This document shows positions 7,371 through 26,018 of a stretch of 42,660 nt of DNA, piece by piece (position 1 is the stretch's first letter; every line of letters begins with the position of its first letter). A model generated the notes under the pieces. That model did not search any database and was not told where the DNA came from. It was given only the letters and a program-made list of their open reading frames with translations. The translations under genes were made by a program, and so were the position numbers. The stretch is from Herbinix sp. (GTDB taxonomy: Bacteria > Bacillota > Clostridia > Lachnospirales > Lachnospiraceae): positions 170,699-213,358 of the forward strand of contig JAQUYQ010000001.1 of NCBI GenBank assembly GCA_028691795.1. Direction: 5' to 3'.

Positions 7371-10300
7371 TTATGATATTCTACCAACTGCAATCTTTCT
7401 ATTGCGACGATATTCATTAGTAGCTTGTCTTTCTTTCTGTTTATTATATACAGCCTCTCTAGGAGTTATATTATTATTATTTTCGGTTTTATTAACAACC
7501 GTGTTATTAGTATCACCCTTAGATATATCGACCTTCCAATCTTTCTTATTAAGTTTACCGGTTTCAGAAGCCGTACTCTCGGTATTCTTATTAATCAATT
7601 TAAGTTGTTCAATCATATCTTTGAGTAATTGAGTATCTATTGTAGTGGTCGATCGAGAAATGATTTCGGCTCCGCCCATTCCCATAGGAGAATGAATATC
7701 GCGTACTGATCTCGATACAGGTTTATCTATTTCTTCGGTTTCTTTTCTAAGTCTTTTAACTTCGGATTCAGGAGTTCCTATACCTTGTTTAGCTTCCTTA
7801 AGAGCATCTTCAAGATTTAGTCCACCTTCACCCATATTCATTATACCAGATATAGTATCTAGCCATTTATAATTCGGAAGCCCAGCATCAGTAACCGCAT
7901 AGTTATGACCAGGACGATCCAGCATCTTATATAGCGTATTTTGTCCTTTATTAAAATAATTCTTTCTAATCCATTCAACTCCAAAATCCAGTCCTCCCGA
8001 CAATTGAAGAGGGAATGATTTAGCAGACGCATAGGGACTATTATTATAAGCTTCAATACCAAAAAGATTTCCTTTTTTCTTGGCTATTGTCGATTCAGCG
8101 TCCCAACCACTTTCAGTAGCAGCATGTGCTAATATATAACCAGGATATACTGAATGCTTTTTACCAGTATTGATAATAGTGTCTACATTATCTTTATAAA
8201 CACTTGTATTGACGTTGGAAAGTATCTTTTCCAATTTATTTTTATCTTTATCCGAAACCGGATATTTATCGAGCTGTTTATTGGCCATAGCCGGATATTT
8301 AGGACCTCTCCAGTTCCTAGCATATTCAGTAAGCTCATCAGCCCCAGTATTAACATTTTCGACAGAATAACCATAATCTGTTGCAGTTGGATCAGTACCA
8401 ACAGAAACAGGAACAGTTTTACCGTCTACCTTGGCAATAACAGATTGAGGATCGAGTTCGTCTCCTTCGACATCACCAAACCCTAAACGTTTCATTACTG
8501 CTTTATTTACTTTACTAAAGAGATTTGCAAGAATGGTGAAGAACGATTTCTTTTCCTTAGTCTTCTCTTCACCTGTAACTTCTAAATCTCCACTCGGATT
8601 ATCAGATAATAAACCGACATTAGATGCTCCAATCTCTGGATATTTACCATTATTTAGAGCCTTATAATCAATTAAGTTTGGATTGATATCGGAACCAAAT
8701 TGAGGATTTTGTCTCACTTCGTAATGTAGATGTTCACCAGTACTTCTACCCGTGCTACCAACATTACCAATTCTGGTTCCAACACTAACAGCCTGTCCTT
8801 CGGTTAAAGGACTCTTATTTTTCATATGACCAAATACATGATATAGACCGGCTTTATCTTTAATCATTAATTGGTTACCGAATCCATCACTACTCGAAGC
8901 ATTTTTTATAACCGTTCCCGATATAGGGGAATTAATCTGAGGAGTCTGTTTATTGGTACTAAAGTCAATACCAGTATGCCACTCATAACCCTTTGAAGGA
9001 TCGGTTGGATTTCTTCGAGATCCGTATTCACTCGATACCATAGAATTTAAATGGTTAGTAAAGAAATCTCTAGCCTGAGAATCTTCATTATATTTTAAGT
9101 AATTTGTACCACTTCCAAATTTATTTAAAATATTTCCAGTATCGTATAGATATTTATCTTTATAATCTATTTCGTCATCATCGCCGCCCATACCAGGATT
9201 AAAATAACCAGCATTGGTCTCTACATCCGATGTGACTGTATTAGAACCCATGGTTAAAATGTTTCCAATATTCTTTAATACATCGGAAACTTTGGTTAAA
9301 AATATTCTATCATTTTCTTCTTGTTGGGCAATAGCAAAAGGTCTGGGAGTAGCCGATTCAGAAGAGCTTATAGCTTGATCATATATACTTTTACCAATTT
9401 TTCCATCAGTATAGGCTTTTTCAATTTCATCAAGTGTAGCATATCGATAATTATAGCCACCCGTAGATATTTTTAATCTCCCATTTACATCGAAACTAAA
9501 ATTATCATCGAAATAATGTGATTCTGATGTCATCTCGGGTATAGTGCCCGATATCTCTCGAAGTTTTTTTGTTTTAGCAACCGATGCAGCTATTTCTTCT
9601 TCAGTCAAACCATTATCGCCGTGTTTATATATTAACCGAGCAAGTTTCTCTTCTTTTAGGCGTTCAGTTTCAGCTATTCTTTCAAGATAAGCTTCTTGAC
9701 TTTCATTCAGTCGTTTACCACTATCAACAAGCATTCCGCTTCTAATACCAACTATTTGATTCTTAATGTTTTCTCTTTCAATATCATCAGTTGTATTTTT
9801 TAACTTGGCCTCAAGTTCAAGGATTTTATATTCTTCGTTTGCTTCTCTATTAGCATTACTATTGGTAGATCCATAAAATGCATAATATAATCCTTCACCA
9901 AGTTTAGGAATAAATGTTCCCTGTAACCACGGGATAGCATCTTCTTTCCACCAACGGGGAATTTCACTAACGAAATTCTCTATACCCTTTACAGCAGCAT
10001 CAAATCCATTTGATAGAGCTGTTGTGAGCCATGGGAACGCTTGGTCTGTTACCCATGGCCATAGATCGTCTTTCCACCAAGTCAATAAATTAGGAAAGAA
10101 TTTTTCTGTAACCCAAGGAATGGCAGTTTCACCAACCCAGGTAAATATACTTTTACCAATATCAAATATTTTTCCAGGTATGGCTTTAATCCAATCTGGT
10201 AATTTCTGTGCTAATTTAAATAAAAGAGGTATACCAACAAATAAAGCTGCACCAAAACCAGCGGCCTTTAATGCAAATTTACCTATTGTTTTCATCCATG

Positions 10301-13300
10301 TCTGAGAATGTTCCTTCATATGAGGTAACGTATCTCTTAATTTATTAAAAGCGTCGAATACTATATTGCCACGCTTTTGGTCTTTTTTAGCTTCCTCTTC
10401 ATCCTTTAATTCCTTGGTAGTTTTACCAAAGGGAAGTTTCGATGTAATATTAGACAATAGCGGAATATTAAAAAATCCTCTATTTTTAACTGTAGTTTTA
10501 TTCTCATCTGGAATTTTAACATTTTGACCTTGAGCGATATCTCCAACTGCATCCTTAACTCTGGCAAGAAGTCGTTTCGGTTTTTTCGTCAATACGTCAT
10601 TAGTATTTTCAGTCTGATCGTTGTCGTCGTCTTTACGTTTTTTATCACCAAAAATAACCCTCATACTATTATTTACTATGAGATCTTTTAGTGTAGTCTG
10701 AGTATCTGATAGAATCTTATTAGTGGTCTCAATATTCATAGACTGTTCCAATGTTAAGTCTTCAATACTTCTACCTCTAAGTTTTTTTGATCTTTCTCTA
10801 AATTCATCATCAGAGAGAGTATATCCTTGTTTTCGCATAACTTCTCTGCGAGCATTATCACTAGCTTCTCTAGCCTTATATTCATCCCATCTACGGGCTC
10901 TATTTTCTTTAAACTCAGCAAGTAATTCTTTTCTCTTATCAAGATAATTTTGATATATGAGGGAATTTTCTTTTTGAATTTTATTTGTAAAGAAAGTTCT
11001 ATTTTCAACTACTCCCTTAATTCTATCCCATATACTAGAATCTTGATATTCACCACGACCAAATAAAGCATCTCCTTGTTTGAGAGCCAATTCTTGTTTC
11101 TGGTCTTTATAATTTTCATTTTTTGTTTTTCTTCCCAATAAACGAGCACCAATGTTCATGGCACCGCCCGCTAATCTAACAGGCATAGAAAGAACTCCAA
11201 AAGTCAAGGCTTCTATTCCTCGTCCTAATTTATTAAATCCCCATTTAAGTAAATTTTGAAATGGTTTAGTTATAATATTTATCATTTTAAAAGGAGCACT
11301 AACAATAGTTTTTATGCCCTTAATAGCAACATCCTTTATGGTTCTCATTTCTTCATTAAATAACAAGCTAAAGAATCCTGTTATCTTTCTTGATATACCT
11401 CTACCAACTGAAAGAATTCCTTCTGTTATAGGAGCAATTGCTGTCATCAGAGGTATCTTTATAGATTTTTCAAAAAGATTCATCATTCTAATACTAGTTC
11501 TCTGCATAAAATGGGAAAAAGGAGTAAAGACTTCTTCCTTAGCAAAATTGCCAAGTTTTTCAGTCCAACCACCATGTCTTAAACCAGACTTCTCATCCAT
11601 TTTACCAAATACTAAATCTCTCCATTTATTAGAAGAGAGGGCAATTCCTGAAGCGGCTCCGATTAAAGCTCCACCCAATGGACCCACTAATCCGAATCCA
11701 CCCAATATACCCATTTTACCAATAACTGTAGCTAAACCGGCTCCGCCTAAAGCACCAGCTATCGTGTTTCCTTTTAGATTGGAATCTGAGCTCGGAAGAA
11801 TATTCTTGAACTTCGATAATATTCCCCCAACTCTTTTTCCGTCTATTTCTTTACCAAACATCATATCTTTAAACGTTTCACTCTTAGTTACTAATCCAAT
11901 ACCAGCACCCAACATAGCACCAGCAAGTGGACCCCCAAGTAATGCAGTAGCTAAGCCCATTCCGGGTAAAGCGCTACCAAGAAACATTTGCTTTGCAGCT
12001 CCAACTGCTGCACCACCAATAATAGCAGTTTTATTTTTAGTGAAAAAATCTATGGCTTTAGAGCCAATTACTCCACCAACTCTTTTTCCATCTTCATCTT
12101 TATCACCAAACATGAAATTCAAAAATCTATCAGATTGTTTAAGCAAACCTAAACCAAATCCAATAGTGGCCCCTCCAATGGGGCCTCCGATTAAAGTACC
12201 CAACAACCCCATGCCAGCTAAAGAACCAACGCCACCTAAGAGAATACCATCAGCTATTCCTTTGGGCGCTCTTTCTTTCATTTTAGCCAACATAGCATTT
12301 ACATCAACATATCTTTTATTCTCAAAATCTCCATCTTCAGTATTTAATATCTTAGGACCAAAAAATACATCTAAGAAGTTTTGAAAACCATTTTGTACTT
12401 GAGATAGTATAGATTTAGTGAATCCTACTCGGTTTCCTTCTTCATCTACGCTCTTATAGGATTTACCCAGTATATACTCACCAATAACATCTTTAAATTT
12501 TCCAATACCCTTTTTCATTTCTCCGAGTATAGAAGTTTCACGTTTATCGTCGAAATTGCTTCCCTCTGGTGGAACTCCAGTGAATTGATACTTAACCCAT
12601 TCAAGGTTTTTAGTAAACTCATTTCGAGCATTTGAAAATAACCCACCGGAGAATTTATTATCAGAGCCCTTAGCACCAAAGAGATATTCTTTGATTTCGG
12701 TCCATCTTGAACTTTGTTGTATTTTAGTAAATAGTCCTTCTTCACCAAACAATTTGTCATGAATGGGAGTAAGAACTTTAGTTTCCATAAATACTTTAAA
12801 ATTAGTAAAATGTATTTTTAGACTATTTGTAACTTTATCAATTATACCTGGTTGATTTTCACCATCACCAAATACAAGAGAATACATAAAATCAGTAACT
12901 TTATTGAGAGAGCTATCAACAAATCCGGCAGGTTTTCTTAACCACTCCTGAACCGATTTAGGTAATTTTCCAACAACAAATTCACCCATCTTATCAAAGA
13001 TAGTTAAATCACCGTCATCCAATTTAGCCTGTTGAAATGCTTTCTTGCGAAGATCATTCTTATCCATAGTTGGATATTGCTCTTCTAATTTTTTCATTAT
13101 ATCTACAGTGGCAGAATCCATACCCCGATATGCAAATTCTGGTTTTTCTCTAGCAGATAAATTGAGTCCTCCGAATGGGGCATCATAATCAGAAGTATCG
13201 TTGGGCTCTGGTATAGTAATTCTTGATTTAATACTATCAGGAATATTATCGGTTGATGGATATACAATAATACCATCGATTAAAATCTGTTTAATATCGC

Positions 13301-15044
13301 TTAAAAATGATATAGGACTATTTAATGAACCGGTCAAACCTTTAGATTTGATATTATCCTTCCATGCGTAAATCATATCGAGATTTCCCTCGAGATCCTT
13401 ACCGAAAGAGGAATCGGTTGCATCAAATAATTCCTGTCTGGCTTTGAGATTATCAATACCAAACATCTTTCCCAGTATATGGGGATTTTCTCTTTTTAAA
13501 TCTATAAGAATGCTTCTGAGTCTTTCGAGATCTTCATCAGAATCAAAACTATAAATTTCAGCAAGGTCATCGACCTCTTTGTTTTCTTTATTTACTCTCT
13601 TATATAAATTAGGGACACTTTCAGTTTGAGCAACGCTGAATATGAAACGTTCAACTTGTTCTCTGAATCGCTTTTCTTCTTCACTACTCATTTCCATATC
13701 TTGGACTCTTTTATTTATATTATTTATTGCTTCATATTGAGCAAATGTAATATTTTGATTTAGATCTTCTTTGAGTTTTTTCTCTGCTTTTGCTACATCA
13801 ACAAATAATCCCTTTTTATAATCATAGCCCATTTCGGGTCTATCTGTTATAGCCGCAAGAATCTTTCTCAAATAAGTAGGGATAACAGTAGTAATAGATT
13901 TCTTTGTATATCCATCAAAATCTACCTTTCCTTTTTCATATCCCGATAAATCCTCAAATTGTTTTCCTTTAGAGTTAGTACCAAATACTTCTCCGAGGAA
14001 ATTCAATATCGGATTCGTACTATCTTTCATACTACCTATTTTATTAAATATTGCAGGAATCAGAGCTCCGATTCCAGTATCAAAATTGTTCAATGAACCG
14101 AGAAGATTTCTTCCGATCACTCCTCTTACAATTCCTTTTGTAAATCCCGCCAATGGATTACTGGCCATTGACATAACCATATCTCTGTTTTCGAGGAATG
14201 GTAATAACATCCCAAGGGGTGTTGAATCGAGATATGTATTAAATTGTTTTCCAACATGTTTTGTATAGGCTTCCATGTTTAGTCCATCTCTGAACATATC
14301 GGAATTATAGGATTCCCTAGTACTCTGACTCCGGGAAGCCCTTTCTCGTTCTTCAAGCATATTATCAAATATCTTCATTCCCTTTTCATAGAAACGAGCA
14401 GAATCTTCGATATATGAATTCATTTGAGAATTATTGAAATCAACGATCTTATTAATACTTTCATTAATAAGATATAAACCACCGGTTACATCTTCAAAGC
14501 CTTTACTAAAAGATGTTATTGACGCAGCGGTATTAATTCTACTACTCTCAGTAATAGCTCTTGTGCTCTGAACGTATGATTCAGAACTAAACTCTAAAGC
14601 TTTAACCAATGGATTATTAACATCATAACGATCTCTCTTATTAATTATAACAGCTCTTGGACTAGGTTCGCCATCATCATCGAAGGAGTCTCCGTCGTCA
14701 AAACCAAAGTCATCATCAAGAGAGAATTCGTCGTCAAAACCACCGAAATCTCCAGCTCTATCTTCATTATATATTTTACCACTTTTTATATCCTCAATAG
14801 TATTTTTAAAACCAGTTTTAGCCGCATCTATCGAGTTCATTATACGACTAGTACCTTCATCATTAGCCATAAGATTCTCAGCGGTTTCTTTTATTTGTTT
14901 GATTGCTTCTATTGTCGAAAGACTTGATGCTACACTATTTGGAAGTGTGTCGCTCAATAAATCCAAAGAAGCTAATCCGAAAGAACGCCCAGCGTTTTTT
15001 ATCCAACTCCGGGCATTAGGATTTGTCTTAATAATTGATCCCAT
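7371..15044 (-). CDS. Tape measure protein with embedded M23 peptidase and glucosaminidase domains
   Basis: At 2557 residues this is the largest gene. It sets tail length and probably enters the host envelope at ejection. Approximate domains: acidic, Phe/Gly/Asp-rich segment at 105-130; long helical region to 900; three Gly/Ala/Leu-rich hydrophobic modules at 920-1165, each followed by an MFG-(K/D)xxDGKRVGG-like sequence; charged helical region with arginine-rich coiled coil at 1350-1450; tryptophan-rich repeats (IPWV, LWPW, FPWL, IPRWW) at 1620-1715; M23 peptidase at 2010-2120 with WHTGIDF and GEHLHYEV; and glucosaminidase-like (GH73-type) domain at 2260-2390 with AHAATESGWD and NLFGIEAY. 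The start is ATG 15044, because AAGGAG lies 7 bases before it; an upstream ATG at 15068 precedes that site. The promoter motif is at 15071 and the terminator near 7340. Confidence 0.9.
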   Translation of the reverse strand: MGSIIKTNPNARSWIKNAGRSFGLASLDLLSDTLPNSVASSLSTIEAIKQIKETAENLMANDEGTSRIMNSIDAAKTGFKNTIEDIKSGKIYNEDRAGDFGGFDDEFSLDDDFGFDDGDSFDDDGEPSPRAVIINKRDRYDVNNPLVKALEFSSESYVQSTRAITESSRINTAASITSFSKGFEDVTGGLYLINESINKIVDFNNSQMNSYIEDSARFYEKGMKIFDNMLEERERASRSQSTRESYNSDMFRDGLNMEAYTKHVGKQFNTYLDSTPLGMLLPFLENRDMVMSMASNPLAGFTKGIVRGVIGRNLLGSLNNFDTGIGALIPAIFNKIGSMKDSTNPILNFLGEVFGTNSKGKQFEDLSGYEKGKVDFDGYTKKSITTVIPTYLRKILAAITDRPEMGYDYKKGLFVDVAKAEKKLKEDLNQNITFAQYEAINNINKRVQDMEMSSEEEKRFREQVERFIFSVAQTESVPNLYKRVNKENKEVDDLAEIYSFDSDEDLERLRSILIDLKRENPHILGKMFGIDNLKARQELFDATDSSFGKDLEGNLDMIYAWKDNIKSKGLTGSLNSPISFLSDIKQILIDGIIVYPSTDNIPDSIKSRITIPEPNDTSDYDAPFGGLNLSAREKPEFAYRGMDSATVDIMKKLEEQYPTMDKNDLRKKAFQQAKLDDGDLTIFDKMGEFVVGKLPKSVQEWLRKPAGFVDSSLNKVTDFMYSLVFGDGENQPGIIDKVTNSLKIHFTNFKVFMETKVLTPIHDKLFGEEGLFTKIQQSSRWTEIKEYLFGAKGSDNKFSGGLFSNARNEFTKNLEWVKYQFTGVPPEGSNFDDKRETSILGEMKKGIGKFKDVIGEYILGKSYKSVDEEGNRVGFTKSILSQVQNGFQNFLDVFFGPKILNTEDGDFENKRYVDVNAMLAKMKERAPKGIADGILLGGVGSLAGMGLLGTLIGGPIGGATIGFGLGLLKQSDRFLNFMFGDKDEDGKRVGGVIGSKAIDFFTKNKTAIIGGAAVGAAKQMFLGSALPGMGLATALLGGPLAGAMLGAGIGLVTKSETFKDMMFGKEIDGKRVGGILSKFKNILPSSDSNLKGNTIAGALGGAGLATVIGKMGILGGFGLVGPLGGALIGAASGIALSSNKWRDLVFGKMDEKSGLRHGGWTEKLGNFAKEEVFTPFSHFMQRTSIRMMNLFEKSIKIPLMTAIAPITEGILSVGRGISRKITGFFSLLFNEEMRTIKDVAIKGIKTIVSAPFKMINIITKPFQNLLKWGFNKLGRGIEALTFGVLSMPVRLAGGAMNIGARLLGRKTKNENYKDQKQELALKQGDALFGRGEYQDSSIWDRIKGVVENRTFFTNKIQKENSLIYQNYLDKRKELLAEFKENRARRWDEYKAREASDNARREVMRKQGYTLSDDEFRERSKKLRGRSIEDLTLEQSMNIETTNKILSDTQTTLKDLIVNNSMRVIFGDKKRKDDDNDQTENTNDVLTKKPKRLLARVKDAVGDIAQGQNVKIPDENKTTVKNRGFFNIPLLSNITSKLPFGKTTKELKDEEEAKKDQKRGNIVFDAFNKLRDTLPHMKEHSQTWMKTIGKFALKAAGFGAALFVGIPLLFKLAQKLPDWIKAIPGKIFDIGKSIFTWVGETAIPWVTEKFFPNLLTWWKDDLWPWVTDQAFPWLTTALSNGFDAAVKGIENFVSEIPRWWKEDAIPWLQGTFIPKLGEGLYYAFYGSTNSNANREANEEYKILELEAKLKNTTDDIERENIKNQIVGIRSGMLVDSGKRLNESQEAYLERIAETERLKEEKLARLIYKHGDNGLTEEEIAASVAKTKKLREISGTIPEMTSESHYFDDNFSFDVNGRLKISTGGYNYRYATLDEIEKAYTDGKIGKSIYDQAISSSESATPRPFAIAQQEENDRIFLTKVSDVLKNIGNILTMGSNTVTSDVETNAGYFNPGMGGDDDEIDYKDKYLYDTGNILNKFGSGTNYLKYNEDSQARDFFTNHLNSMVSSEYGSRRNPTDPSKGYEWHTGIDFSTNKQTPQINSPISGTVIKNASSSDGFGNQLMIKDKAGLYHVFGHMKNKSPLTEGQAVSVGTRIGNVGSTGRSTGEHLHYEVRQNPQFGSDINPNLIDYKALNNGKYPEIGASNVGLLSDNPSGDLEVTGEEKTKEKKSFFTILANLFSKVNKAVMKRLGFGDVEGDELDPQSVIAKVDGKTVPVSVGTDPTATDYGYSVENVNTGADELTEYARNWRGPKYPAMANKQLDKYPVSDKDKNKLEKILSNVNTSVYKDNVDTIINTGKKHSVYPGYILAHAATESGWDAESTIAKKKGNLFGIEAYNNSPYASAKSFPLQLSGGLDFGVEWIRKNYFNKGQNTLYKMLDRPGHNYAVTDAGLPNYKWLDTISGIMNMGEGGLNLEDALKEAKQGIGTPESEVKRLRKETEEIDKPVSRSVRDIHSPMGMGGAEIISRSTTTIDTQLLKDMIEQLKLINKNTESTASETGKLNKKDWKVDISKGDTNNTVVNKTENNNNITPREAVYNKQKERQATNEYRRNRKIAVGRIS

Positions 15045-15070
15045 AATATCACTCCTTTTTGAGTTCATAT

Positions 15071-16549: not shown

Positions 16550-19500
16550 TTATCCTTTATATATATCTTCAACTTTACGTTTAAGTTCTATTATCACCTT
16601 ATTAGCAAACATTGTTGTCAATATAGAAGTAGTCATACGTTGTAGAATGGCTGACGGTCCTATAACCGATGATATTTCTTCATCGGGTCTAAAGTCAGTA
16701 TAACCCTCATACCCCGGAGCTTTAACTTCACCAACAACAGATTTCAATGCGCTAAAGAAAGTGATCTTATCTCCAACGCCAACGGTGTTATTATATTTCA
16801 AATATATTTCAATAAGAACACCACCATTGACTTCATTACCTTTGATTTTACCATTGGTCTCTTCAATCTTAGAAGATGGTTCGGTTATCATAAGACCGGC
16901 TTTAACAATCTTTCCAGTTTTATCATACTTATTCAGTAAAGCCTTTTTCTTATTCACTTTACTATAATAAGAAGAAACGACCTTTCTCAACGATGGAGAT
17001 AGGTCTTCTAAATCAACAGAGCAATATATCTTGACATCTTCTATTACTCCGCTATATTTGCTACTATGTTTATTTTTTCCTATTGATTTAAATTCCTCTT
17101 TAATATCATCACTGACATCTCTAAGCAATTTATTCATTTCACCTTCATCAAAAGATTGGTCGTATATAATAAGATCGTCACCAACGTTTACTTTGTCTCC
17201 TTTTTTAACAAGAAATTCAACGTTAGAATTTGGTCCTAATACAACCTCTTTTTTGGACACTATTTCAGAGCTCATATCATCAGCCAACTTTTGGGTTACA
17301 TATGAGCTATCCTCATATGTCGCAAAAGAAGGAATGATAGCAACTTTTTCTAATGTGCCTATATTAAATCTATTCACACCAGTAGATTCATCGGTAAAGA
17401 ATTTATTATTATAGGCAATTATATCGTCCTTTTTAAACTTATCACCTTTTTTAAGTTTAGTATCCTTTTTATTAACTAAGAAGAAACCACCGCCACCATT
17501 TTTAACTATATTATCATAGAGGTCTATAGCTTCAACTTTACCCGATTTATATTTTACAACCATGATTTCAGTATCATTGTCTATCTCGACAACTTCTCCA
17601 TCTTCATCAGCCACATTAACAAAGTCCTTGGATAAATGATATTGAACTATTTGCTCAGCGCCATTAGATACCAATACAGGACTCATTTTATTAACAGGAA
17701 TGATATGTTTAGATTGTTTAACAGACATTGAAAGTCTGACTGTGTCGTCCCTTGTATTTCCAAGAGGAGTTAATAATTCAGCAGGAGAGAAAAGATTAGT
17801 ATCTTTAAGCTCATCCATTTTATCATCTTTTATATCAACATATCCTCTAGCCGAGACGATATTCGGTTCAAGAGTTAATTCTTTATTTACGCCAACATTG
17901 GCATCAGGAGATGTAGACATTCCTATGATTCCCATCATACTTTTGTCATAACTTCTCTTCTCTTCAGTATAAGAACGATCCAAATTTAATCCAACTAAAC
18001 CCTTAGAAGAAACAGTTCTTGTTTTAGAGAGTTCCACTATAGGATTAAGAGTCGGATAATCTTCAACCGTTTGTAATTCTAATAAATCCTTAATAATTTG
18101 ATTTCTCGGTATAGATATTTTCACTGGGTTATTATTACCAGCAGTATCTCTATACTTCATATATGCTTTAGTTATTGCTTTATATAACAAACCAGCAACA
18201 ACTTCATTCGAACGTATTCGATAAATATTCATATTGTTTTCTTTAATGAATGAGTTGTCTGACATCAATTTGTTTCCATATAGTAATACATCAACAAACT
18301 CTGTTGGTTGATCTAAATCATTAAGAACCTCTTTACTGATCGGATCAATCATGAACTCATAGAAAGTATCAAAAGCATTCGCTATATTTCTAACTCCAAA
18401 TAACAACTCAAAGATATCAAAATAAATATCCTTATTATCAAAATCAGAAAAACTGTAATCTTCAGTTGGTATATCAACAAAAGCATTCATCAATAAAGCA
18501 TTATCCAAAGGTATCTGTTTATAAACAAGGTAACCATCTGAGAATTTCACTATATTGTAATCGAGAGATAAATCTCTCGGCCTTGTATCGGAAAATTTAT
18601 ATTCAATTTCAGCTTTCCTAAGAACTGTACTCAGTCCTTCACAATAAGACAATAACAAAACAAGAGGAACATTCTTTTTCATGATAGTTGCTCTTGTATA
18701 CATATATTTTTTACCCACATTGGTGGAATTAAATTCCCCTAATAATTTAGGATCAAAATTAGCAACAACAAAGTCTACTATATCTAATGCTACATTATCG
18801 GTTGATAATGATACAATATTTTGAGAATTGTAATCTACATATATAGGAGTAGAAGGTTGACCTTTCTCCTTGTAGTATCCAATTATCATAGCATCCTCAA
18901 TAGAGGCGAATTTATATTTGTCTTTAATTTCTTCAAGCTCATCTAAGTTAAAGAAAAGTTTATAGTTATTGGTTTCTATAAAGCTAAAGTATTTTGATAA
19001 CTCATCATACTCTATAGTTGATTTATATTTCTTATTAGTATTTATATTATTAGCCGTCTTAATTTTAATAGACGGTGGTTTTTTAGTAGTTAAAAACTTA
19101 TTGAGCTTCTCAGTCTTAGAAGTTAATTTACTACCATATCTTCTTAGGAAGATTTTATTATAGTTAGTACAAATTTGTACGACCCCTTCTCCTGTTTTGG
19201 AGATTGGTTTAAGAAATAACTGTTTATTGATAATTTTCTTATTACCTCCGATATATAAGAACTTATCTTCGACAAATTCGGGTATATCAACAGTTACATT
19301 ATGTCGCACTCTATTCCCATCTTCAAGAACAACTCTTAATGTTTTCTTTAAGGTCAACTCATCAGAGGTATCCTCGGTTGTTATACTCTTTACAAATACA
19401 GGAATATTCTTATTATTCATATTAGTAAAAGAAGATATAATATCGTGCTCTAATAGCTCTTTATTATATTCTTTCTCAAAAGCAGGATATTTAACATCTA

Positions 19501-20671
19501 ATATATTAGTATTAACAGTATTGAGCTTTTTAATATCAATTCTTCTGGGCTCAATCTTAACATTTTTAGTTTGAACTATTCTATCAATGGATTTACCATT
19601 GAACTTGAGTTCTCTTTGTTTGGCTTTTAATTCTGTGTCTCTTTTAATAGATTGAGACGTTTTCCCTATTTTAGATTTAGTGATTTTATCGTTTATTTGA
19701 TTTGCAACTTTAATTTCGAATGCCAAATCATCAGTTAAAACTTCCGAATTAATTTCTTCATCGAGTATCTTATCTGCGATGGTAGAAAAAGCTATATCTT
19801 GAGCGTCCTTCTGTATTCTTTTAACTTCTTTCACAGTATTAGGCTGTGTTTTAGAAATAATTTTGTTCGATACAGTCTGGGCCGCGTTAGATATAGCTTT
19901 CGTATTTTTATCTTCTTTTTCGATTTGATCTTCCAAATCTTCCTCTGTTGTCAATGTGCGATTAAAGAACTTCATAGCTTTAAAGAATAAAGCAAAGCTT
20001 CTGTCATCACACTCAGAGGGATTGATCCTAACGACGCCAAATTTATTATAAATAAAAAAATTTATATTACCGAGTGATTTGAATTTTTCCATATCGTTTT
20101 TCACAAGATACAAAAGTATCATAATAGGATTGTTAACAGTTTTCCTGTTAATCTTTAAATCTTTGGAATCATCAAACCAATCATCAGCGTCGATTAAAAC
20201 AAATTTATTCGGATAATCACTAACTCTGTCATCGTTAATCATATTATTCAGGACTTCAAAATACTGATTAATTTTGACTAAATAGGGTAATTGTACAGAA
20301 TTAGTGAAAAACAATTCATTCCATTGCGATAAATCAAATATAAAGTTTCTGCCATTAAGGCTTGATATAGCAACGACCGGTTTTAATCTGGTTTGATCGC
20401 TGATATCTTTATATATATTCTTTCTATTAGATTTATCAATTGAACGAATAACCTTACTCCTGATTTTAAATACATATCTAAAATCCGCGAAGTAGTGATT
20501 ATATCCATTGGACTGAATGATAGGATTCTTTAAAAAATCAATGACCGTATTATGTGATTTACCACAGAATAAAGCAGCGTTTCCTAAAGTCATACTCCCA
20601 TCATGGTGAGGCATTTTTGTTTTCATCTTCTTTAAAAGAAGATGCCTCAAATCATTCAATGTGTTTTGCAT
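16550..20671 (-). CDS. Phage DNA-directed RNA polymerase beta subunit-like protein, unsplit
   Basis: This 1373-residue protein is a divergent beta (RpoB-like) subunit. Landmarks occur in RpoB order. Around 470-485, FLYIGGNKKIINKQ corresponds to the bacterial TFIINGTERVIVSQ region. Around 880-945, a TRTVSSKGLVGL stretch followed by SPDANVGVNKELTL parallels THKRRISALGPGG and ETPEGPNIGLI. Around 975-1000, RLSMSVKQSKHIIPV parallels NRALMGSNMQRQAVP. At 1298-1316, VGDKITFFSALKSVVGEV parallels GDKMAGRHGNKGVVS, keeping Lys1302. The last 45 residues resemble the end of the beta DivlNPLGVPSRM region. The first 400 residues, with a lysine-rich linker around 260-390, match nothing I know. With beta-prime, beta would form the catalytic centre; no sigma factor was seen. 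A promoter motif is at 20751, and a structured leader region lies further upstream. Start support: AAGGGGTG about 10 bases before ATG 20671. Confidence 0.85.
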   Translation of the reverse strand: MQNTLNDLRHLLLKKMKTKMPHHDGSMTLGNAALFCGKSHNTVIDFLKNPIIQSNGYNHYFADFRYVFKIRSKVIRSIDKSNRKNIYKDISDQTRLKPVVAISSLNGRNFIFDLSQWNELFFTNSVQLPYLVKINQYFEVLNNMINDDRVSDYPNKFVLIDADDWFDDSKDLKINRKTVNNPIMILLYLVKNDMEKFKSLGNINFFIYNKFGVVRINPSECDDRSFALFFKAMKFFNRTLTTEEDLEDQIEKEDKNTKAISNAAQTVSNKIISKTQPNTVKEVKRIQKDAQDIAFSTIADKILDEEINSEVLTDDLAFEIKVANQINDKITKSKIGKTSQSIKRDTELKAKQRELKFNGKSIDRIVQTKNVKIEPRRIDIKKLNTVNTNILDVKYPAFEKEYNKELLEHDIISSFTNMNNKNIPVFVKSITTEDTSDELTLKKTLRVVLEDGNRVRHNVTVDIPEFVEDKFLYIGGNKKIINKQLFLKPISKTGEGVVQICTNYNKIFLRRYGSKLTSKTEKLNKFLTTKKPPSIKIKTANNINTNKKYKSTIEYDELSKYFSFIETNNYKLFFNLDELEEIKDKYKFASIEDAMIIGYYKEKGQPSTPIYVDYNSQNIVSLSTDNVALDIVDFVVANFDPKLLGEFNSTNVGKKYMYTRATIMKKNVPLVLLLSYCEGLSTVLRKAEIEYKFSDTRPRDLSLDYNIVKFSDGYLVYKQIPLDNALLMNAFVDIPTEDYSFSDFDNKDIYFDIFELLFGVRNIANAFDTFYEFMIDPISKEVLNDLDQPTEFVDVLLYGNKLMSDNSFIKENNMNIYRIRSNEVVAGLLYKAITKAYMKYRDTAGNNNPVKISIPRNQIIKDLLELQTVEDYPTLNPIVELSKTRTVSSKGLVGLNLDRSYTEEKRSYDKSMMGIIGMSTSPDANVGVNKELTLEPNIVSARGYVDIKDDKMDELKDTNLFSPAELLTPLGNTRDDTVRLSMSVKQSKHIIPVNKMSPVLVSNGAEQIVQYHLSKDFVNVADEDGEVVEIDNDTEIMVVKYKSGKVEAIDLYDNIVKNGGGGFFLVNKKDTKLKKGDKFKKDDIIAYNNKFFTDESTGVNRFNIGTLEKVAIIPSFATYEDSSYVTQKLADDMSSEIVSKKEVVLGPNSNVEFLVKKGDKVNVGDDLIIYDQSFDEGEMNKLLRDVSDDIKEEFKSIGKNKHSSKYSGVIEDVKIYCSVDLEDLSPSLRKVVSSYYSKVNKKKALLNKYDKTGKIVKAGLMITEPSSKIEETNGKIKGNEVNGGVLIEIYLKYNNTVGVGDKITFFSALKSVVGEVKAPGYEGYTDFRPDEEISSVIGPSAILQRMTTSILTTMFANKVIIELKRKVEDIYKG

Positions 20672-22182: not shown

Positions 22183-22520
22183 ATTATATTTTCCTTCCTT
22201 CCATATATTACACCAATGGCATATCTAGAACCGTTGGTTGTTATAGTAGTCATCCAACTAACATCACGTTTTATTTTGTCCATTTGAGGCTTAAACTCGG
22301 GTGGAATACCAACCGGAAGATCTTCCGGCGATATGAACAACTTAGATGGATCAACTGGTGGTATTGGATATTTACTAATATCAAAATACAGATTAAGTCT
22401 TGACCATATACCATCTTCAACATAATAACTTTCAACGAACTCATCGATCTTTAATTTCTTAAAGTAGTTTTTAATGATTGAAACCTCGTTCAAATATTTA
22501 TCGATATCAATGTTTTTCAT
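22164..22520 (-). CDS. Hypothetical protein, 118 aa
   Basis: I do not recognise this protein. A helical N-terminus (about residues 1-35) is followed by a proline-rich middle (YPIPPVDPSKLF, LPVGIPPEFKP) and a strand-like C-terminus (SRYAIGVIYGRKENIIW). It has no membrane segment or cysteines. It is the first gene of the minus-strand group 22520-21135. The start has an AGGAGG-type site upstream (plus-strand CCTCCTT near 22532), and a TATATTATT motif lies at 22598-22606, about 80 bases before the ATG. It is transcribed away from the large candidate RNA at 22663. Confidence 0.7.
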   Translation of the reverse strand: MKNIDIDKYLNEVSIIKNYFKKLKIDEFVESYYVEDGIWSRLNLYFDISKYPIPPVDPSKLFISPEDLPVGIPPEFKPQMDKIKRDVSWMTTITTNGSRYAIGVIYGRKENIIWSFQQ

Positions 22521-22597
22521 TTCTTTATATCCTCCTTATTTACTATGATCCCTTATCTTAATAGATCTATAAAATTTAATATTCAGTATTACACGTT

Positions 22598-22606
22598 AAT
22601 AATATA
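22598..22606 (-). promoter_or_regulatory. Candidate early-type promoter (TATATTATT)
   Basis: The minus-strand motif is similar to TATATTATA seen before other small-gene operons. It lies upstream of the four-gene group that starts at 22520. The spacer is AT-rich, so a chance match cannot be excluded. Confidence 0.3.
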
Positions 22607-22651
22607 TATTCGTTATTCTAAAAATTACTAAATTGAAAATAATTTTAGTGT

Positions 22652-22663
22652 AACATATTATTA
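22652..22663 (+). promoter_or_regulatory. Candidate late-type promoter (AACA-N6-TA) for the large RNA
   Basis: AACATATTATTA is an exact AACA-N6-TA match at the left border of the GC-rich structured region. It is the only such motif correctly oriented just before it. Confidence 0.45.
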
Positions 22664-23262
22664 ATTGTAATTCCGCCTGTGGGTGTGACAGCTTGAGGGT
22701 GGGAATAATGCGTGTATGGACTGTAACGTTTGTTAATTATGATCTCGCCATACACGTCCTCTTGCTCTAGAAATTGATCTGTAGGTAAAATGCAAAAATA
22801 ACTACAGGTTCCTTCTCTCATAACTGATAATGTAAACCGACCATAATATATAAAAGATGGTCGGTTCCTTACGGTTATGGGGGAGGGGGGCAAGAGGGGG
22901 GCAAGATACGGAGGATACGTAAGAAGGCACCAGCGCCGAGCGTCTTGGAATACCGGAAGGGATTCCGAAGGAAAACCGAAGGGATGAAAAGGAGAGCGAA
23001 GCGATACGCGGAGAGGCGGGAATAAAAAAGAGAAGGAGAAAAGGGGAGAAGAAAGATAGAAGAGAGAAAAGAAGAAGAGAGATGGAGGGGGAGAAAGGAG
23101 GGAACCGACCCCAGAAAGAGGAACGAAGTGACGAGGGATGGGGTTGGAATAACGTCTCCGAAACAAGTTACTAAAACACAGTAAATACTAGGTATTAGAT
23201 AAATAGATCAAAAACATATAGATATTGATAACACTTTTAAAGTGTTATCAAATAATTTTTTG
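22663..23262 (+). ncRNA. Candidate large structured non-coding RNA, about 600 nt
   Basis: This divergent spacer holds no credible gene, yet it is far richer in G and C than the rest of the window and dense in pairing. On the plus strand in order: 22670-22674 with 22702-22706, enclosing 22677-22680 with 22688-22691; 22711-22719 with 22748-22756 (9 bp); 22779-22784 with 22802-22807; 22832-22844 with 22857-22872 (GTAA/TTAC plus a 9-bp helix); 22947-22951 with 22962-22966, capped by CC-GGAA-GG, a GNRA tetraloop; and 23105-23112 with 23140-23147 (8 bp with G-U pairs). Bases 22667-22674 can also pair with 23146-23153 (7 of 8), a possible closing helix. A purine tract fills 23018-23104. A promoter-like motif precedes it and a perfect terminator ends it. 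Size and phage setting recall large ornate phage RNAs such as ROOL or GOLLD; identity was not tested. Confidence 0.6.
23225..23261 (+). terminator. Intrinsic terminator of the large candidate RNA
   Basis: A near-perfect palindrome (23225-23237 with 23239-23251) is followed by TAATTTTTTG on the plus strand only. This shows that the spacer is transcribed rightwards from a start within it. Confidence 0.88.
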
Positions 23263-23267
23263 CTTTA

Positions 23268-23276
23268 TATATTATA
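23268..23276 (+). promoter_or_regulatory. Candidate early-type promoter (TATATTATA)
   Basis: TATATTATA lies 7 bases after the terminator T-run and about 50 bases before ATG 23328, where a new promoter is required. Confidence 0.45.
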
Positions 23277-23327
23277 ATAAGAGAGACAACTATATCTTAT
23301 ATAGAATATAAAGGAGAATAACAATTT

Positions 23328-23996
23328 ATGTTTATAATCAATAATCTATATATTACTATTATCAGTATATTAATAGTAATAATATCATCAGAGATATTAA
23401 AAAGAATATTCTTTACTATATCTCAAAAGATAATATCATTTGATTATTATTTAGGAGATCTAATGATAATACCAGAAAATGAAATGAGTGAAGAACTTTA
23501 TGATGAATATAAAAATGACAATATAAAGAAAATCACAATAGATGATGGAGATATGACTAAAGCAGAAAATGTTGTATTATTTAATAAAGAAAAAATAGAT
23601 CTTGATAATTATAATATTCTTATCAATAGTATATTTACTATATTGAGATTAATAAGTATAATTGAAATTATGAGGATATTATATTTATTAATTATCAACG
23701 ATAAAGTATATAATATTTATTATATTGGAATATCATATATCATTATATCTATAATGATATTATCATTAGATTTTATAATATCATTATTTACAAATATATT
23801 TAGTTTATTTGTAAATAATTCTAAAGATAAAATAGATATATTCTTATCAAAAGAAATACCATATAACTTATATAATACATTATATAATAAAAATATTTTA
23901 TATAAAGATATGATTAAGATAGGTAGATTATTAATATATCATATAATAATTAATGAAATATCGTTGATGTACTTATTATATATAATAACTAAATAA
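23328..23996 (+). CDS. Multi-pass membrane protein, 222 aa
   Basis: I do not recognise a family. The protein is extremely rich in Ile, Leu, Asn and Lys. Probable membrane segments lie near residues 5-25, 99-123, 131-163 (possibly two) and 200-220. Between the first two is an acidic/lysine-rich soluble loop of about 70 residues. It may act in the host membrane early in infection, for example in exclusion or host takeover, but nothing in the sequence proves this. AAAGGAG lies about 12 bases before ATG 23328, and a TATATTATA motif sits upstream at 23268. The next gene starts 17 bases after the stop, so it leads the group ending at the terminator near 24780. Its AT content is even higher than that of its neighbours. 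Confidence 0.75.
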   Translation: MFIINNLYITIISILIVIISSEILKRIFFTISQKIISFDYYLGDLMIIPENEMSEELYDEYKNDNIKKITIDDGDMTKAENVVLFNKEKIDLDNYNILINSIFTILRLISIIEIMRILYLLIINDKVYNIYYIGISYIIISIMILSLDFIISLFTNIFSLFVNNSKDKIDIFLSKEIPYNLYNTLYNKNILYKDMIKIGRLLIYHIIINEISLMYLLYIITK

Positions 23997-24013: not shown

Positions 24014-24505
24014 ATGAAAGAAAAATTATTTGTATTGTCATATAATGATAATATAATAGGCATATGTAATAATAAAGATTATTTACTTTATTATATAATG
24101 GCTAGATGTTTACCCATTAGTAAAGTAAATATAGAGAAGGTTAGGAGTGATAAAAAGAAAGATAAAATATTGAGCAAATATCTTGAGTTTTATATAGAAG
24201 AATTCCATGGTTATTATGTTCCTAGTAGGGATATTAAGATCATCGAGAATATGATTAAAGAAGAAAGAGGTTTGATGAAATTAACCATTGAATCTTTGCG
24301 AGACTATAGTAATCCGATGATATATAATATAACCCGAAAAGAGAGAAAGGTATTATTAGAAGCATTGGATTTACTTGAAACGAAAATAAAGAAAAAAAAT
24401 ATTAATGAGTTCGTGGATGTAGAAACTCTCGTTAGAGAGAATTGTCTTTTAGATGATATGCGTTTATGGAATTCATTATATATTGATAAAATTAATAGGG
24501 AGTAA
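24014..24505 (+). CDS. Hypothetical protein, 163 aa, member of a three-gene paralogous family
   Basis: The function is unknown. The N-terminal part (FVLSYNDNIIGICNNKDYLLYYIMARCLP, then a basic strand and a YLEFYIEEFHGYYVPS segment) has the same layout as the genes at 27481 and 27946: a short strand ending in a D/E-D/N pair, a (I)GxC/Y strand, a Lys-rich helix beginning with KxxxxY, a second strand I-x-K-I/V, an F/Y-G-Y/F-x-(V/I)P motif, then a helical C-terminus. The likely paralogy suggests a small alpha/beta domain repeated by duplication in this accessory region. AAAGGAGG lies 10 bases before the ATG. It is co-transcribed with the membrane protein before it and the zinc ribbon gene after it. 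Confidence 0.75.
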   Translation: MKEKLFVLSYNDNIIGICNNKDYLLYYIMARCLPISKVNIEKVRSDKKKDKILSKYLEFYIEEFHGYYVPSRDIKIIENMIKEERGLMKLTIESLRDYSNPMIYNITRKERKVLLEALDLLETKIKKKNINEFVDVETLVRENCLLDDMRLWNSLYIDKINRE

Positions 24506-25247: not shown

Positions 25248-25307
25248 GTATTTTTGATAAATGAAGATATATATTATTTATATAAGAAAAGAAATGAGGA
25301 GATTAAA

Positions 25308-26018
25308 ATGAAAGGTAAAGTAATTTGTATTGAGGGTGCCGATGGTGTAGGTAAATCCACATTGTTTGAAGCCCTTAAAGAGCGGTATAAAAAATGTCGG
25401 GTCATTTTTAAAAAATATCCCACCCTCCCTCTTAATCCTAATATTGAAAAATATTTAAAGGGAGAAATTCCTAAGCCGGACCGTGAAAAATTGACCGAGT
25501 ACCAATATCGGAGAAATATCGCATCATTTTATATGGTGGATAGAATCGCTGATATGATGACTCCTGTTGAAGAGGGGTCTCGGTTGTGTATTCCTGATTA
25601 TCTCGATGTCGGTTATAATTTAATAACCGACAGATACACGCTCTCTAATTGCATTCTCCAGGTATCCAATATGAGCATTAACCAAAAGAGAGCTTATATT
25701 GAAGAAGTGATGAAAACAGAATTCGAGACCTTTGGAATTCCTAAACCTGATTTGGTATTGATATGTACCGCATCACCGGAAAGATGTGTTACCAATATCA
25801 GTAACAGAGGTAGAACTCCCGATATTCATGAGAATCGGGATAGTATATTGAAATCATTGGAGAATTCCAATATCCTTAATAATGAGCTGGCCACTACTTC
25901 TATCAAGTCCCTTATCTATAAAACGGATGATGATTTTGGTATGAAGTCGATTCAAAGGATCGTTCGTGAAATCGAAGTCATATTTGAAATGTATGGCGTC
26001 GTGATGTATAAGAAATAA
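25308..26018 (+). CDS. tmk: Thymidylate kinase (dTMP kinase)
   Basis: The enzyme phosphorylates dTMP to dTDP with ATP, feeding phage DNA synthesis. The 236-residue protein has the P-loop GADGVGKST at residues 10-18, the family DR(Y) motif at 108-110 (LITDRYTLSN), a preceding Arg-rich acceptor region, and a short lid-like segment around GRTPDIHE near residue 180. The length is slightly above the 200-215 residues usual for bacterial enzymes. ATG 25308 is supported by GAGGAG about 6-7 bases upstream; a longer frame from about 25254 lacks a ribosome binding site. It lies between an unknown gene and a membrane-anchored protein in one operon that ends near 26728. The closest alternative is another deoxynucleoside monophosphate kinase of the same fold. 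Confidence 0.85.
   Translation: MKGKVICIEGADGVGKSTLFEALKERYKKCRVIFKKYPTLPLNPNIEKYLKGEIPKPDREKLTEYQYRRNIASFYMVDRIADMMTPVEEGSRLCIPDYLDVGYNLITDRYTLSNCILQVSNMSINQKRAYIEEVMKTEFETFGIPKPDLVLICTASPERCVTNISNRGRTPDIHENRDSILKSLENSNILNNELATTSIKSLIYKTDDDFGMKSIQRIVREIEVIFEMYGVVMYKK

Follow-up and report, generated by a model that had tools for sequence, protein, structure and literature searches.

ROOL and GOLLD are large phage-associated RNAs that are represented by Rfam models. Replication that starts from an R-loop, in which a transcript is paired to its template, has been described for ColE1 and phage T4 (PMC5333043). At the human mitochondrial origin OriH, a transcript started at a promoter is reported to cross the G-rich block CSB II, where the R-loop is stabilised by an RNA:DNA quadruplex, and to be cut by RNase H1 into primers (PMC6317783). 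For phage AR9, the late promoter consensus has been given as AACA-(6N)-TA/G, the last base being the start site (PMC5312081). Here, a non-coding unit of a jumbo phage is compared with these systems. The reading favoured, at a probability of about 0.5, is that the unit specifies an origin-associated non-coding RNA which would stay hybridised to its template and open or prime the origin of an AR9-like jumbo phage.

The stretch of DNA analysed (42,660 nucleotides, hereafter the window) comprises bases 170699-213358 of a 213,358-base contig, C8, from a metagenome-assembled genome. Judged by its homologous multisubunit RNA polymerase subunits, which are approximately 31-36% identical to those of AR9/PBS1, Listeria phage LPJP1 and staphylococcal jumbo phages, C8 is an AR9-like jumbo phage of 213 kb. 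It also codes for virion proteins and for a protein of 2565 aa whose matches are of the endolysin and tape-measure types, and an RNase H gene is present at C8:135582-136025 (E 3e-38). A 787-base overlap between the two contig ends, at 94.5% identity, suggests a complete phage genome that is circular or terminally redundant, apparently binned into a bacterial metagenome-assembled genome. Two window genes of this phage (28449-29114 and 35026-35700) match a single PHROG of unknown function (12252), and endopeptidase-type matches are common to a small gene at 1773-2396 and the gene of the 2565-aa protein at 7371-15068. The unit is placed between a minus-strand and a plus-strand gene block, with the following features (window coordinates):

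16550-20671, minus strand: RNA polymerase beta-type subunit gene, conserved neighbour on the far side of the unit (PHROG E 8e-169; tblastn matches to AR9, LPJP1 and others)
22652-22663, plus strand: late-type promoter match AACATATTATTA, exact AACA-N6-TA, whose last A (22663) is the predicted transcription start
22663-23262, plus strand: non-coding RNA unit of up to 600 nt, from fold z, lack of a recognisable gene and lack of an Rfam match
22664-22709, plus strand: 5' hairpin, in the predicted fold of 22663-22920
22710-22757, plus strand: predicted 10-bp hairpin with an inner UAAC-GUUU-GUUA mini-hairpin, holding AACGTTTGTTA
22776-22902, plus strand: predicted long hairpin domain whose 3' arm contains the first G-tracts
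22879-22901, plus strand: tandem G-tracts GGGGGAGGGGGGCAAGAGGGGGG, the only G5-N1-8-G5 site in the 213-kb contig
22879-23128, plus strand: purine run (82% purine), ranked as the contig's most favourable stretch for an RNA:DNA hybrid
22947-22966, plus strand: GGAA-capped hairpin, from predicted fold and sequence
23105-23147, plus strand: CCGACCCC/GGGGTTGG hairpin, from predicted fold and sequence
23225-23262, plus strand: intrinsic terminator from a terminator search, a 12-bp stem (23225-23251) followed by a T-run
24014-24505, plus strand: 163-aa gene, conserved neighbour 3' of the unit, with homologues near the units of G205, G202, G211, G201, G223 and G224
25254-26018, plus strand: thymidylate kinase-like gene, conserved neighbour of the unit

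An earlier note on this DNA had described a 600-base spacer that is rich in GC and purines, holds no credible gene and is bounded by an exact AACA-N6-TA motif on the left and an intrinsic terminator on the right, and each of these points was borne out. The unit has 43% GC, against 32.5% for the window, and 66% purine; the 82% purine of 22879-23128 was not reached in any of 8435 windows of 250 nt sampled from the contig, on either strand. Three open reading frames inside the unit gave no Pfam or PHROG match at E values up to 1. By its match to the AR9 late consensus, the promoter is predicted to direct RNA through the unit. Within 150 nt upstream of C8 open reading frames, AACA-N6-T[AG] was found for 57/167 in the sense direction versus 26/167 in antisense, and three control motifs in the same test gave 18/167, 19/167 and 21/167. 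A sigma-70-like site (10/12 matches) overlaps the late-type promoter of the unit, so its use by the host polymerase is possible. The terminator is the only one found in 22500-23400, where shuffles average 0.5, and suggests that a free RNA is produced as well.

The earlier proposal of a large structured RNA with its own promoter and terminator stands on the sequence, on the units of relatives and on helices kept between two of them (L219 and L220, below); the kinship with ROOL and GOLLD proposed alongside it is not supported. A scan of the window with 4227 Rfam families returned no match at the gathering threshold, whether to ROOL, GOLLD, another large RNA or a group I or group II intron, and this lack of a covariance-model match counts against membership of the unit in ROOL or GOLLD. 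When 22500-23400 was scanned permissively, to E 10, the only matches were three to microRNAs, all far below thresholds. In relatives, Rfam matches placed group I introns in the polymerase gene, as in AR9 (L030:9961-10197 and L054:8972-9184). A search for close homologues of the unit in 50,697 phage records yielded four partial matches, which were weak, covered no more than 10% of the query and were not convincing, and no close homologue was found among the polymerase loci of relatives that were examined.

The predicted fold of 22663-23160 has a z of -5.8 on the plus strand versus -3.1 on the minus strand (100 dinucleotide shuffles). Stems named earlier were recovered at 22710/22757, as a bulged hairpin at approximately 22836-22865, as the GGAA-capped hairpin and as an 8-bp stem at 23105/23147. 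A closing helix that had been suggested between 22667-22674 and 23146-23153 is doubtful, with one mismatch and competition from the local 5' hairpin. The predicted free fold has the first G-tract base-paired within a hairpin. The AACGTTTGTTA element also occurs in LPJP1 (as an 11-mer, in three places there) and as a one-base variant in L030; it appeared promising at first as a shared motif and was rejected, as the 7-mers and 8-mers of nine units were not convincing after multiple testing.

The conservation of helices could be followed in the units of the sister pair L219 and L220, which are alignable (84% mean column identity), share the gene neighbourhood of the other units and carry no strong tandem G-tract. 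The single-sequence fold of one was scored on the other and compared with 2000 random placements of the same substitutions. Broken pairs numbered 33 and 22 versus 51 and 49 expected, and no placement of the 2000 was as low. Double compensatory changes numbered 6 versus 5.1 (P 0.41) and 10 versus 4.3 (P 0.008), an excess in one direction only. One-side changes that keep pairing numbered 20 and 15 on the transcribed strand versus 6 and 10 on the opposite strand, the kind of difference that RNA folding of the transcribed strand would produce. On the opposite strand, broken pairs were also below chance (46 versus 55, P 0.036; 29 versus 51, P below 0.0005), so the test makes no clean choice of strand. 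In a two-sequence RNAalifold analysis, 8 double compensatory pairs were found versus a mean of 5.0 and a maximum of 11 in 60 column shuffles, which is not significant, and the opposite strand gave 11 versus 6.3; the consensus energy was far below that of shuffles on both strands (z -15.4 and -11.0). The placement test, which is independent of that analysis and was the one relied on, moderately supports a conserved structure in L219/L220 and weakly supports RNA rather than DNA as its conserved form, and the maintenance of helices suggests that the folded RNA has a function of its own.

Such a function could be exercised away from the template. The strongest competing explanation is that the unit produces a large, late, structured non-coding RNA which works as a free molecule (by binding protein, or as a scaffold, sponge or ribozyme), of the same kind as ROOL or GOLLD, and that its place at a switch of GC skew is a by-product of divergent transcription. 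The promoter match and terminator, which bound a discrete RNA, speak for it, as do the plus-strand folding and, in L219/L220, the low number of broken pairs and the surplus of pairing-keeping one-side changes on the transcribed strand. It is nevertheless considered rather unlikely, given the lack of an Rfam match, the wide divergence of sequence and length among phages in the same neighbourhood, the one-directional compensatory excess and the opposite strand's own deficit of broken pairs.

The reading favoured here, an RNA that stays on its template at an origin, draws on features of the unit in relatives, which were found by using the polymerase gene as bait with alignments A1 and A2. Single-sequence RNA polymerase queries returned nothing in viral contigs or genome contigs and only the window's own genome among 200 genomes of the family, and two small neighbouring genes used as bait revealed no relatives in viral contigs or phages. 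Nine units were compared feature by feature, namely those of the window's phage, LPJP1, L026, L028, L030, L046, L248, L025 and L240. Among phages in a common neighbourhood, sequence and length vary widely, with a range of 276 to 793 nt in the nine units cut for the k-mer comparison. In each of the first seven units named, a late-type promoter precedes the G-tract by 29-385 nt, a long-stem hairpin follows it at 111-615 nt, and an AT-rich stretch that is in the lowest 2% of the locus lies no more than 700 nt away. In LPJP1, the start predicted from the late-type promoter is at L014 position 6016. A clear T-run follows the hairpin only in the window's phage, L248 and L240, and in L248 a further promoter match comes before the hairpin, so that the relatives have no established terminators. 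Beyond the tract, the window's phage and L248 show an extreme purine bias; that of L026 and L046 is high, that of L030 and L028 is moderate, and LPJP1 shows none. Fold z for the seven units (30 shuffles, start to G+200) ranges from -1.6 (LPJP1) to -5.4 (L046). L025 has promoters, a weak G-tract only and a 9-bp stem, and L240, which has two G-tract sites, shows no late-type promoter match within 700 nt.

Gene neighbours are shared to different extents. Homologues of the thymidylate kinase-like gene were detected in 8/14 records, near and downstream of the unit in G202, G204, G205, G211, G223 and G224, approximately 6 kb from it in G238 and elsewhere in G201. Those of the 163-aa gene were detected in 7/14 records, close downstream in G201, G202, G205, G211, G223 and G224, and elsewhere, as a weak match, in G218. 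Neither homologue was detected in LPJP1 under the thresholds applied, and its unit can therefore be compared only by its position upstream of the polymerase gene. The units of LPJP1 and L248/L250 and the tracts of L039/L040 run in the same direction as the polymerase gene, and the units of the window, L026, L028, L030, L046, L025 and L219/L220 run in the opposite direction. On the polymerase strand, another late-type promoter match was noticed upstream of the polymerase gene in L025:5678-5952, L046:5643-5936, L030:5635-5948 and L203:5603-5748, followed by a short GC-raised stretch and then by a promoter match at the polymerase gene itself; the GC-raised stretch is perhaps a conserved leader or small RNA. 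In addition, L046:3572-4089 is gene-free and contains many spaced copies of TGATTCATT.

The tandem G-tracts, which, like the skew minimum discussed below, are absent from the earlier note and were found here, start 216 nt past the predicted transcription start, and 60 third-order Markov simulations of the window contained a mean of 0. With the definition of G5, 1-8 bases and G5, 51 records (21 + 30) were scanned. Such tracts are rare in the mostly AT-rich relatives: 21/51 records had a match, several being homopolymer runs only, and G000 and G215 are bacterial assemblies in which some or all of the matches lie outside the phage contig. Immediately upstream of the polymerase gene, a non-homopolymer tract was found in the window's phage, LPJP1, G202/L026, G204/L028, G205/L030, G210/L039 (its one tandem site, beside the gene), G245/L040, G237/L248 and G238/L250, the last two being a near-identical pair, and a weaker tract occurs in L046 (GGGGGATCGGGG). 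Non-homopolymer tandem tracts away from the polymerase gene were found in G202 (a second one), G207, G213, G219, G220, G235 and SA1; upstream of that gene, neither AR9 nor SA1 has a tandem G-tract unit. In two phages, a pair of tandem G-tract sites occurs with a spacing of 160-220 bases (L240/G235:93509-93686 and L248:4763-5000), and the sites of L240 are far from the polymerase gene and off the skew minimum.

The tendency to form an R-loop was calculated as RNA:DNA-hybrid minus DNA-duplex nearest-neighbour energy. On the predicted RNA strand, the unit ranked first of 85,144, 84,944 and 84,544 contig windows of 50, 100 and 200 nt, respectively. Among relatives, the 50-nt rank was 1st in L030, L028, L250 and L240, 5th in L046, 8th in L025, 19th in LPJP1 and 61st in L026, and the 200-nt rank was 1st in L028, 6th in L250, 22nd in L240, 142nd in L025, 440th in L026, 796th in L030, 1012th in LPJP1 and 2189th in L046; most of these relatives were picked for their G-tract, so their ranks are partly circular and only that of the window is independent. 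From its tandem G-tracts and top hybrid-energy rank, the transcript is predicted to be a G-rich RNA that favours a persistent hybrid.

The detrended cumulative GC skew of the window's phage has its global minimum at 193,198, with the unit starting at 193,361 and the G-tract at 193,577 (0.4 kb from the minimum). In the whole genomes of LPJP1, G205/L030, G204/L028 and G202/L026, the detrended minimum lies within 1.5 kb of the G-tract, and the same holds in G238/L250 over the 160 of 223 kb covered. It is 3.3 kb off in L025; L046 has only a local minimum there, its global (uncorrected) one being 133 kb away; and the G-tract sites of G235/L240 and G210/L039 do not coincide with a skew minimum. Without detrending, the minimum falls at the record end in LPJP1 and at 13.5 kb in G204/L028. 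In AR9, the detrended minimum is at the record ends; the spacer there is merely short, carries divergent early promoters and stands a few genes away from one for a DnaB-like helicase, so AR9 lends no support to the origin reading.

Gene orientation alone can drive skew, so uncorrected skew was judged insufficient by itself and orientation was regressed out at third codon positions. In the window's phage, the corrected minimum is 319 bp from the unit, with an amplitude reached in 0/2000 permutations, and the maximum lies 0.40 of the genome away from it. Within 30 kb of the unit, the third-position skew of plus-strand genes is -0.21 on the left (8 genes) and +0.05 on the right (29), and that of minus-strand genes is -0.04 on the left (12) and +0.24 on the right (3). 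That the corrected skew of this phage still switches at the unit argues against a by-product of divergent transcription, as the free-molecule explanation would have it. In the other genomes with significant corrected skew, the minimum is 2.2 kb (L030), 9.6 kb (L028), 10 kb (L025) and 18 kb (L046) from the unit. Corrected skew was not significant in LPJP1, L026, L240, AR9 and SA1, so the detrended minima of LPJP1 and L026 may only mirror gene orientation. A cruder strand-controlled test gave P 0.0005 for the window's phage, L030 and L028 and 0.019 for L250, with no signal in LPJP1 (P 0.20) or L026 (P 0.52). Combined Fisher P values were 2.4e-4 (five genomes with signal) and 0.003 (all eight tested with a site) for corrected skew and 2e-8 (nine phages) for uncorrected detrended skew, all of which overstate the evidence because the phages are related, with common synteny, and are not independent. 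The location of the unit at a GC-skew switch is well supported, and the unit is a candidate replication origin. This position, together with the R-loop-type G-tract, is the strongest clue to function: at the flip of the genome's strand bias, the RNA probably helps to start the copying of viral DNA.

The same location could also be explained by DNA alone, as an origin with G-rich and AT-rich DNA, or as a packaging or recombination site, at which transcription is incidental. Homopurine and G-tract DNA beside AT-rich DNA at a skew minimum would suit such an element, but the promoter match just before the structured part, the terminator at its end and the stronger fold on the transcribed strand make it improbable. 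An ordinary long untranslated or regulatory spacer of divergent operons, or a decayed gene, would fit the position between minus- and plus-strand gene blocks but is barely credible beside the exceptional composition, folding, hybrid energy and terminator, the open reading frames without Pfam or PHROG relatives and the comparable units of other phages.

For an origin-associated RNA hybridised to its template, the following course of events is proposed. In infected cells, the late-promoter RNA polymerase of the phage would start at 22663 and make a folded RNA of up to 600 nt. Once the tandem G-tracts and purine run were transcribed, the RNA would stay paired to the C- and pyrimidine-rich template, the hybrid perhaps being locked by a G-quadruplex between the RNA and the displaced strand. 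The R-loop would open origin DNA beside AT-rich sequence, phage RNase H would trim the RNA, and the processed ends might prime leading-strand synthesis, with forks leaving the unit in both directions. In ColE1 RNA II, 5' folding decides whether a hairpin or a hybrid is formed, and the 5' folding of the phage RNA may make a similar decision for the G-tracts.

The wider proposal, that the AR9-like lineage starts a genome of more than 200 kb from a dedicated structured G-tract RNA made by its own multisubunit RNA polymerase, as a CSB II-style R-loop origin, is tentative and held at somewhat under even odds. If it were true, the phage's own transcription machinery would be tied to origin firing, in convergence with mitochondrial-style transcription-primed replication. 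Among the matches listed in a literature search with thin coverage of subscription journals, neither a description of such a unit in these phages nor an account of how replication starts in jumbo phages with their own multisubunit RNA polymerases was found. R-loop priming is already known as a kind of mechanism, and its use in such phages would be new. With the unit, the site, strand, start position and mechanism are all specified and open to direct trial, and LPJP1 (Listeria grayi) is a cultured relative in which the idea could be tried.

In comparison with known systems, the phage unit resembles ROOL and GOLLD in its size range, phage setting and non-coding nature, and differs from them in having no covariance-model match and in possessing a purine run and a skew-switch position, which ROOL and GOLLD are not known to have. 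As in AR9 late transcription units, its promoter fits AACA-(6N)-TA/G, the last base of which serves as start site (PMC5312081); unlike the window's phage, AR9 lacks a tandem G-tract and, upstream of its polymerase gene, any gene-free gap of at least 300 bases. As proposed here, the unit would be like the ColE1 RNA II and T4 R-loop origins in replicating from a template-paired transcript, although no sequence relation to them is shown, transcription is likely to be by the phage's own multisubunit enzyme and the genome is larger than 200 kb. From OriH CSB II it differs in the lack of homology, in the unrelated host system and in being predicted as a larger folded RNA with a hairpin terminator; like that origin, it combines a promoter match with tandem G-tracts downstream and an RNase H gene on the contig.
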